A DNA stretch of 36,481 nt. It comes from an uncultured Campylobacterales bacterium (GTDB lineage: Bacteria > Campylobacterota > Campylobacteria > Campylobacterales > CACVAW01). Shown in pieces: positions 27,097-28,394 of this stretch. The stretch lies in assembly GCA_902727925.1 (NCBI GenBank), contig CACVAW010000023.1:1-36481 (forward strand), written 5' to 3'. Position 1 is the first letter of the stretch, and every line of letters starts with the position of its first letter. The translations under genes were made by a program, and so were the position numbers. The notes beneath the pieces are model-generated. The model worked only from the letters and a program-made list of their open reading frames with translations, was not told the origin of the DNA and did not search any database.

Positions 27097-27147
27097 ACAC
27101 GTTAGTTTAATTTGGATCATTCAAGTTAAAAAATTAAAGGAGTTTAT

Positions 27148-27861
27148 GTGAAGAAAATGTTTTATTTGGTATTAGTTACTTTTGTACTAATGGGTTTTGT
27201 TGGGTGTGGTGACGATGATGGTTGTGGTTACGGTAAAGATTGTAACAGTAGTGCTATAAAAAAAGATGTAAAAACAGACTCTAAGTGTGGACCTGGTAAA
27301 TGTGGTGAAGGTAAGTGTGGAAACGCTAAAAAAGCTGATACTAAGTGTGGTGAAGGCAAATGTGGAACTGCAAAGAAAACAGAAACTAAATGTGGTGAAG
27401 GTAAGTGTGGAGCTGTTACTAAAACGGTAAATACTGTGAAAACTACGGCTACATCTGTTAAAGATAGTGCTGTTAATACTGCTATTAATGCAAAAGATAC
27501 TGTAGTTGATACGGCTGTTAATTCTAAAGATGCTGTTGTTAACACTGCTATTAACGCAAAAAATACTGTAGTTAATGCAGCTGCTAATTCTAAAGACGCT
27601 GTAGTTAATACTGCTGTCAATGCAAAAGATGCTGTAGTTAATAAATATTCTGAAGTAAAAGATTCTGTAACTGGTACTACTAGTAATGTTAAAAATACTG
27701 TAGTTAACAAAGTGAGTGATATAAAAACTGAAGCAACAAGTTCAGTAGAAACTAAATGTGGTGCAGGAAAATGTGGAACTGCAAAAGTTACTAGTAAAGT
27801 GAGTGAAGTAAAAACTGACGCAGTAAATGCGTTAGAAGATAGAGTTAACCAAGGCTGGTAA
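27148..27861 (+). CDS. Predicted lipoprotein with EGKCG clusters and 11-residue repeats (HvfA-like?)
   Basis: The 237-residue protein has a signal ending in a lipobox-like FVGC with C20, so it is probably a lipoprotein. Residues 46-88 carry seven KCG units, three of them in EGKCG (54-58, 69-73, 84-88) and one PGKCG; a second pair at 203-210 ends in AGKCG. With C26 and C32 there are 12 cysteines. Between the clusters lie nine exact-length 11-residue repeats (104-202, e.g. SKDAVVNTAIN) that look like an amphipathic LEA-type helix. EGKCG is the core motif of HvfA-type RiPP precursors, whose cysteines MNIO enzymes turn into copper-binding oxazolone/thioamide groups. GTG 27148 is the start, 5 bases after AGGAG; an ATG two bases earlier runs straight into TGA. 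A DoxX gene follows after 2 bases. The RiPP idea is inference. Confidence 0.8.
   Translation: MKKMFYLVLVTFVLMGFVGCGDDDGCGYGKDCNSSAIKKDVKTDSKCGPGKCGEGKCGNAKKADTKCGEGKCGTAKKTETKCGEGKCGAVTKTVNTVKTTATSVKDSAVNTAINAKDTVVDTAVNSKDAVVNTAINAKNTVVNAAANSKDAVVNTAVNAKDAVVNKYSEVKDSVTGTTSNVKNTVVNKVSDIKTEATSSVETKCGAGKCGTAKVTSKVSEVKTDAVNALEDRVNQGW
27283..27411 (+). repeat. KCGEGKCG-coding repeat cluster
   Basis: Two 45-base units (15 residues each) begin at 27343 and 27388 with KCGEGKCG. A third, extended copy starts at 27283 with an extra KCGPG. The cluster encodes seven cysteines in 43 residues. Confidence 0.8.
27457..27753 (+). repeat. Nine tandem 33-base repeats coding an 11-residue motif
   Basis: Residues 104-202 of the lipoprotein split into nine 11-residue units with consensus (A/S/V)K(D/N)(A/T)VVN(T)A(V/I)N and no gaps. 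The central five alternate between AK- and SK-starting units, so a 66-base higher-order duplication is likely. Units decay toward the 3' end (VKDSVTGTTSN, IKTEATSSVET). Confidence 0.85.
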
Positions 27862-27863
27862 TA

Positions 27864-28289
27864 ATGTTTACTTTTTTTGAATTAATTTTTAATAGTATTC
27901 AAAGTCTAGCATTATTATTTGCTAGACTTCTTGTTGCTTATGGCTTTTATGAACCTGCAAAAAATAAGCTAATGGACATAGAAGGAACTACTAATTTTTT
28001 TACCAGTATCAATATCCCAATGCCGGAGATTAGTGCTTATTTAGCTGCTGGAACAGAAATAGTAGGTGTACTTTTGCTTACATTTGGACTATTTACAAGA
28101 CTTATTTCTATACCTTTACTTTTTGTTATGGGTGTAGCTATATTTGTTGTGCATTTTGATGCTGGATTTAGTGCAGCTGCTAATGGTTTTGAAATACCGC
28201 TTTATTATGCATCTTTTTTAATGATATTTTTATCATTTGGATCAGGTAAGTTTAGTCTTGATTATTTACTTTTCCAGAAAAATAGATAA
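27864..28289 (+). CDS. DoxX-family membrane protein (HvfX-like)
   Basis: The 141-residue protein has four membrane helices in the DoxX pattern. LALLFARLLVAYGFYEPAKNKLMDI is helix 1 and its conserved loop, SINIPMPEISAYLAAGTEIVGVLLLTFGLFTRLISIPLL are helices 2-3, and GFEIPLYYASFLMIFLSFGSGKFSLDYLL is helix 4. This form closely resembles the DoxX proteins found in Hvf-type operons with EGKCG precursors and MNIO enzymes. It starts 2 bases after the lipoprotein stop with only AAGG upstream, so it is probably translated by coupling. DoxX proteins are linked to thiol and redox roles in membranes, but the exact function here is not known. No hvfB or hvfC follows; rpmE is next. Confidence 0.88.
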   Translation: MFTFFELIFNSIQSLALLFARLLVAYGFYEPAKNKLMDIEGTTNFFTSINIPMPEISAYLAAGTEIVGVLLLTFGLFTRLISIPLLFVMGVAIFVVHFDAGFSAAANGFEIPLYYASFLMIFLSFGSGKFSLDYLLFQKNR

Positions 28290-28336: not shown

Positions 28337-28394
28337 TTCCCCTCCCCCCATGGTAGTGAGTTCGCTCACTACCAACCATCTTATTTTTGGGGAA
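28337..28394 (+). promoter_or_regulatory. Structured rpmE leader, candidate ribosomal-protein regulatory RNA
   Basis: A perfect 10-bp hairpin TGGTAGTGAG (28351-28360), TTCG loop, CTCACTACCA (28365-28374) is enclosed by a second pairing of TTCCCC (28337-28342) with GGGGAA (28389-28394). A C-rich run CCCCTCCCCCC lies in the 5' side. The ribosome site GAAGGA (28401-28406) follows just downstream. L31 genes in other phyla carry autoregulatory leaders, so a similar device is plausible here. A T-rich stretch (28381-28388) lies seven bases past the hairpin, so attenuation is an alternative. Confidence 0.55.

Follow-up and report, generated by a model that had tools for sequence, protein, structure and literature searches.

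In the literature that we searched, maturation of EGKCG copper peptides always depends on an MNIO, which requires O2 and iron, together with a DUF2063-type partner. The reaction is a four-electron oxidation of each cysteine with O2 as the acceptor (PMC12668002; PMC13419390), and a cysteine thioaldehyde is the proposed intermediate in 5-thiooxazole formation (PMC12668002). EGKCG precursors also occur in genomes that lack an MNIO, which numbered 67 of 2583 in one count, and the modification of such precursors was left open (PMC12452194).

Here we describe a locus of this kind from an uncultured Campylobacterales bacterium (GenBank assembly GCA_902727925.1). The window, by which we mean the whole stretch of DNA that was analyzed, comprises 36,481 nucleotides of contig CACVAW010000023.1. 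Within it, a KCG-repeat lipoprotein gene is paired with a DoxX gene of the HvfX family (Table 1), and comparison across the order links this pair to genes for a GMC flavoenzyme and a GDH3 subunit.

The KCG lipoprotein and its HvfX-family neighbor

Table 1. Features of the KCG-HvfX locus, in window coordinates
Feature	Position	Strand	Description or basis
Likely ribosome-binding site, AAAGGAG	27136..27142	+	5 bases 5′ of the GTG; read from sequence
HvfA-like KCG-repeat lipoprotein	27148..27861	+	237 aa, GTG start; NF050137 match
Signal peptide and lipobox, FVGC at residue 20	27148..27207	+	sequence inspection
KCG cluster 1, residues 46-88, seven KCG	27283..27411	+	repeat model and motif positions
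11-residue-repeat, LEA/apolipoprotein-like amphipathic linker, residues 93-200	27424..27747	+	LEA_4 and lag identity
KCG cluster 2, residues 203-210, KCGAGKCG	27754..27777	+	motif positions
HvfX-family DoxX membrane protein, 141 aa	27864..28289	+	NF050144, 108.8 bits, cut-off 80

Re-reading the sequence gave the same coordinates and motif counts as the initial annotation. The lipoprotein carries three EGKCG motifs (Cys57, Cys72 and Cys87) and six other KCG units (Cys47, 52, 67, 82, 204 and 209), in addition to the lipobox cysteine, Cys20. When the protein was shuffled 20,000 times, no copy had more than three KCG units, against the nine observed. The KCGExKCG_twice profile NF050137, with a cut-off of 19.5, matched at 51.7 bits, and the full-length HvfA equivalog NF050188 scored 30.1 bits, below its cut-off of 95. 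The linker between the two clusters is 44% identical to itself at a lag of 11 residues and 55% at a lag of 22, and its match to LEA_4 (38 bits, 1.5e-9) falls below the gathering score. The protein had been described as unlike a plain HvfA on account of both its repeat domain and its lipobox. The LEA-like linker is indeed distinctive, but we dropped the lipobox as a mark of novelty: many relatives carry one, and a lipidated EGKCG peptide, NedA, is known (PMC12636315).

The DoxX reading frame begins two bases past the stop codon of the lipoprotein gene, and its proposed Hvf-type character was confirmed by a score well inside the HvfX family (Table 1), so that placement in a distant DoxX subfamily can be set aside. 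It also matches PF07681 with 70.6 bits and is 50-65% identical to the HvfX proteins of related loci. With an above-threshold profile match and an adjoining KCG precursor, it qualifies as HvfX; a sequence search of this protein against solved structures returned no match. Between the DoxX gene and an rpmE-like gene lies a perfect hairpin, TGGTAGTGAG-TTCG-CTCACTACCA, at positions 28351-28374, the 20-base core of which occurs once in the genome.

MNIO/HvfC and GMC/GDH3 genes in the source genome and across the order

The source assembly is a 1.5 Mb draft in 69 contigs, 99.2% complete, and was searched family by family. Profile searches detected neither MNIO (DUF692/HvfB; PF05114) nor HvfC/DUF2063 (PF09836) anywhere in this 99.2% complete genome, which therefore lacks the MNIO and DUF2063/HvfC partners expected for an HvfA/Buf_EGKCG (captophorin) precursor. 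The absence of both genes from the vicinity of the pair, as first noticed, thus extends to the genome, and the suggestion that a maturase elsewhere acts on the protein is wrong if an MNIO was meant, because the genome has none.

What the genome does encode is a GMC protein (C7:7297-8928; 844 bits, intact 544-aa frame, PF00732 and PF05199 above cut-off), a GDH3 protein (C61:56681-57145; PF13618 33.8 bits, cut-off 23.4) with the twin-arginine motif QRRNFIK and a lipobox, TatC (contig C18), and an FMN-binding glutamate synthase-like protein (C10:118307-119962) of the type whose gene follows HvfX in both classes of locus described below. The GMC and GDH3 genes lie on other contigs, unlinked from the KCG-HvfX pair and from each other, and the GMC and HvfX of this genome form long branches in their trees. 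A search for further KCG proteins was also productive, revealing a second locus, L003/L054 on contig C10, that encodes two small cysteine-repeat proteins in tandem. At L054:6457-7474 a secreted KCDxxKK-repeat protein of 156 aa is accompanied by a 128-aa protein with about ten KCG-type units, and no HvfX gene adjoins them.

Because the sample from the organism's own family consisted of one genome, relatives were drawn from 200 genomes of the order. Many short KCG proteins (for example, those of G125, G147 and G180) escape profile NF050137, so we added the DNA pattern KCGxGKCG and direct reading of loci. HvfX scored above cut-off in 39 of the 200 genomes and MNIO in 16, and most HvfX genomes therefore lack an MNIO; GMC was found in 48 and GDH3 in 49. 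The 37 genomes with the KCGxGKCG pattern divide into 10 with MNIO, 26 with GMC/GDH3, none with both and one with neither, a draft of about 360 contigs (G130). Corresponding figures are 11, 25, 0 and 3 for the 39 HvfX genomes, and 4, 16, 0 and 0 for the 20 genomes identified by the KCG profile. None of the sample's 39 KCG genomes has both enzyme pairs. Among MNIO-negative genomes, the ratio of those with GMC/GDH3 to those without is 26:1 when the KCG pattern is present and 24:133 when it is not (Fisher p 9e-17, a value that ignores relatedness), and in a single genus (g16) GMC accompanies 6 of 6 KCG-pattern genomes and 0 of 2 others. The KCG-HvfX pair is thus conserved with MNIO/HvfC or with GMC/GDH3, and rarely with neither.

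Some genomes depart from this pattern. GMC proteins of the subfamily discussed below occur without a detected KCG gene in G039, G080, G092, G105, G139, G162, G183 and G189. In the two f18 genomes that were fetched, which had been scored as KCG-less, a Met-rich KCG protein is encoded directly upstream of GDH3; such proteins lie directly 5′ of GDH3-GMC in G035 and G063. At L077:4108-4596 and L082:4421-4837, GDH3-GMC is immediately preceded by a gene for a secreted, Met-rich protein carrying KCGSGMM and KCGDGMM motifs, a possible second kind of precursor. A KCx variant adjoins GDH3 in L083, which, like L077, L082 and the YtkA-fusion loci L081 and L090 described below, was at first scored as KCG-less. 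HvfX-family genes at L039 and L070 (G067 and G195) belong to a genus with no detected KCG, MNIO or GMC, where HvfX may have another role.

The HvfX loci that we read fall into two types. In type A the order is KCG, MNIO, HvfC, HvfX. In type B, KCG and HvfX are found with a GDH3 of about 165 aa (PF13618, twin-arginine signal) and a GMC of about 555 aa (PF00732/PF05199). Type B genes are arranged as KCG-HvfX-GDH3-GMC (L046, L052), with an FMN glutamate synthase-like gene between HvfX and GDH3 (L041, L047), with GDH3-GMC divergent from KCG-HvfX (L036, L042), or as KCG-GDH3-GMC without HvfX (L056, L058); in these last the KCG and GDH3 genes abut (L056) or overlap by 4 bases (L058). The gene following KCG is HvfX in 35 cases, MNIO in 13 and GDH3 in 8. 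Both locus types include examples with the FMN glutamate synthase-like gene and with a response regulator/kinase pair, and these shared neighbors identify the enzyme pair as the exchanged part. MNIO and GMC types interleave in the HvfX tree, where nine label changes are needed and a single MNIO clade is rejected (AU p 0.0081). The cysteine contexts of the two types are alike, with K preceding in 71% (MNIO) and 83% (GMC) and G following in 93% and 79%, respectively.

Beyond the sample, a KCG gene is present at 41 of 80 GMC-profile loci in named genome records, mostly from Sulfurimonas. One Sulfurimonas MAG locus (L131:958-7656) contains KCG-MNIO-HvfC plus GDH3-GMC; it may represent a transition from one type to the other, and it makes mutual exclusion a strong tendency and not an absolute rule. 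On plasmid pSulSP of Sulfurospirillum sp. 'SP', KCG adjoins GDH3-GMC together with a response regulator/kinase, MsrP and a ferric-reductase-like gene (the latter two at L195:1824-5111), and no multi-haem cytochrome c subunit is annotated in that locus. MsrP-like and MsrA-like frames were read near KCG/GMC at the end of L042 and past GMC in L126 and L151; Msr and ferric-reductase-like neighbors point to periplasmic oxidant or metal stress. In three loci ordered KCG-DUF4395-GDH3-GMC, a DUF4395 membrane protein, perhaps a substitute, occupies the HvfX position (L147:4787-5482, with a PF14340 match; L149:4813-5505; L156:4754-5485). At L081:882-1340 and L090:6393-6839, a KCGAGKCG or NCGAGKCG segment is joined to a YtkA-like domain (PF13115) next to GDH3-GMC, and L090 by reading lies near an apparent metal P-type ATPase. 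In G118 a KCG-YtkA fusion adjoins GDH3, with what sequence reading suggests is a P-type metal ATPase nearby.

A functional link between KCG/HvfX and GMC/GDH3 is well supported. Gene content, operon linkage, near mutual exclusion and repeated swapping are direct observations, as are the loss of catalytic residues described below and the presence of all parts in the source genome, which fits the type B gene set in scattered form. The pair had been called an orphan. This is correct with respect to MNIO and HvfC, but its GMC and GDH3 partners are in the genome and are linked to the pair in relatives.

A GMC subfamily and the chemistry that it might perform

By sequence and fold, the nearest solved relatives of the GMC protein are the catalytic subunits of fructose and glucose dehydrogenases, and its structure model superimposes on 8jej and 6a2u with a TM score of about 0.8. 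In Burkholderia cepacia glucose dehydrogenase the catalytic residues are His476 and Asn519, each with an assigned role (PMC6719666). The GMC subfamily has Leu at the position of the catalytic His (476 in that enzyme, 1147 in fructose dehydrogenase) and Pro at that of Asn519. These replacements were seen in the Campylobacterota GMC sequences examined, with one exception, an Ile at the His site in L153. In the source-genome GMC, Leu and Pro align at the two positions, and the protein therefore lacks the His/Asn pair characteristic of FAD-dependent dehydrogenase complexes. Cys209, Cys215 and Cys220 are invariant in the aligned sets and match the 3Fe-4S ligands 212, 218 and 222 of B. cepacia glucose dehydrogenase; the loop that bears them was modeled at low confidence. 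The cofactors are probably FAD and a 3Fe-4S cluster. Adjacency to KCG occurs in every deep branch of the His-less subfamily except the lone long branch of the source genome. Both His and Asn are kept in a Mesorhizobium plasmid homologue that adjoins sugar-transport genes, and in the GMC/GDH3 type of genome G187 (573 and 242 aa). We take these to be the sizes of Campylobacter jejuni Cj0415 and Cj0414 as well, which would place that pair in the His-containing type.

Our preferred reading, to which we assign a probability of about one half, treats the KCG-HvfX pair as the precursor and the membrane component of a Campylobacterales version of the HvfA/bufferin/captophorin copper-peptide system, where GMC/GDH3, in the periplasm, stands in for the cytoplasmic MNIO-HvfC. 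With a partner that carries a Tat signal, GMC is expected in the periplasm, alongside the KCG lipoprotein and HvfX. GMC flavoenzymes oxidize CH2-OH groups to aldehydes. According to a passage in PMC6149797 that cites Ewing 2014, HMF oxidase, a GMC enzyme, also oxidizes primary thiols to thiocarbonyls. Alcohol and thiol oxidation of this kind suggests that, given a remodeled active site, a GMC enzyme could begin the same cysteine chemistry as an MNIO.

The chemical proposal that follows is more tentative, and we rate it at slightly under even odds: that a His/Asn-less GMC, exported through Tat with a GDH3-like subunit, oxidizes KCG cysteines in the periplasm, giving Campylobacterota an MNIO-independent flavin route to copper-binding thiooxazole-like peptides. 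Sec would export the KCG protein, a lipid anchor would hold it next to HvfX in the inner membrane, and the Tat signal of GDH3 would take folded GMC across that membrane. GMC would remove a hydride from the cysteine CH2-SH of KCG units, and the resulting thioaldehyde could cyclize towards a thiooxazole-like copper ligand. The electrons would pass by way of the 3Fe-4S cluster into the respiratory chain, making O2 dispensable, on this proposal, at the site of modification. At the membrane, the modified product may then bind copper or a different soft metal. That GMC acts on the cysteines of KCG units, what it makes of them and the part played by copper are inferred.

Several considerations weigh against the replacement of MNIO-HvfC by GMC/GDH3. 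Hydride abstraction might be inefficient in a flavoenzyme that lacks the customary catalytic base. In the source genome the GMC and GDH3 genes stand apart from the KCG-HvfX pair and from each other, one Sulfurimonas locus contains both enzyme pairs, and some GMC genomes have no detected KCG gene. In addition, fold and sequence searches of GDH3 against solved structures gave no match, including to the solved hitchhiker subunit. A role for GMC/GDH3 as a redox partner, or for the KCG protein as an unmodified thiol buffer, would in part leave the same genomic trace.

We consider the other initial suggestion, that the KCG protein is an unmodified, membrane-anchored, thiol-rich metal buffer, somewhat unlikely; GMC/GDH3 would then share a metal or oxidant stress unit with it and act on another substrate. 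Genomes in which KCG adjoins GMC without HvfX, and those with GMC alone, are consistent with this idea, and the response regulator/kinase, MsrP and ferric-reductase-like genes at some loci are expected of a stress unit. Nonetheless, it leaves unexplained both the mutual exclusion of GMC/GDH3 and MNIO/HvfC in the KCG and HvfX genomes of the sample and the alternate occupancy of one operon place by two enzyme pairs. We consider it quite unlikely that GMC/GDH3 is instead a redox partner which oxidizes or resets copper-thiolate or disulfide states of the KCG protein and passes electrons to the respiratory chain. The Tat-based periplasmic location, conserved 3Fe-4S ligands and lost His/Asn pair would all suit electron transfer, as would the Met-rich KCG proteins 5′ of GDH3-GMC and the KCG-YtkA fusion near a metal ATPase, but such a role, alone, gives no reason why a modification pair, MNIO/HvfC, should be the interchangeable part.

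An ordinary gluconate or sugar dehydrogenase whose link to KCG is incidental is very unlikely. Its kinship with fructose and glucose dehydrogenases would allow this, as would Cj0414/Cj0415, identified as a gluconate dehydrogenase in a report that PMC4178425 cites and that also counts against the replacement reading; against it, the subfamily has replaced both catalytic residues, which the sugar-neighbored Mesorhizobium homologue and the G187 type keep, and its genes occur together with KCG, and share operons with it, much more often than chance would allow. Finally, maturation by a distant or overlooked MNIO is hardly credible: the assembly is a draft, and for precursors without a linked MNIO gene, modification by a distant MNIO has been proposed (PMC12452194), but neither family has a match at this completeness and 26 further KCG-motif genomes of the sample also lack an MNIO.

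Comparison with known systems

The KCG precursor and HvfX add members to families already known. What appears to be new is GMC/GDH3 as an alternative to MNIO/HvfC; in the open-access literature that we searched, we found no report tying GMC or gluconate dehydrogenase genes to bufferins or HvfA. Most KCG-bearing genomes of the order belong to the EGKCG-without-MNIO class, and nearly all of these have the same GMC/GDH3 pair. If that pair is a maturase, there would be a second chemistry for the EGKCG/KCG motif, one that takes place in the periplasm and would suit a microaerobic or anaerobic lifestyle, and a function for a GMC subfamily without the sugar-oxidizing residues.

The locus shares a secreted precursor with repeated EGKCG motifs and an adjoining HvfX-type DoxX gene with the HvfA-HvfB-HvfC-HvfX oxazolin/captophorin operons of Haemophilus, Neisseria and Fontimonas, and differs from them in having GMC and GDH3 in place of MNIO/HvfC and a long LEA-like stretch that separates the KCG clusters. 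Campylobacterales KCG-MNIO-HvfC-HvfX loci (such as L060, L061 and L062) have the same motif and HvfX, and some also have the response regulator/kinase or FMN glutamate synthase-like neighbors; the difference lies in their enzyme pair, which is absent from the source genome. NedA, a lipidated EGKCG RiPP of Neisseria dentiae, resembles our protein in its lipobox and EGKCG repeats but is modified by the MNIO NedB with NedC, losing 4 Da at each of three motifs (PMC12636315). With the FAD-dependent glucose, fructose and gluconate dehydrogenase complexes (PDB 6a2u, 7w2j), the candidate enzyme shares the GMC fold and the 3Fe-4S cysteines; its small partner, GDH3, matches PF13618 and has a twin-arginine motif, but the GDH3 model gave no fold match to the solved hitchhiker subunit. 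In contrast to those complexes, it has Leu and Pro in place of His and Asn, and it is linked to KCG peptides and not to sugar genes.
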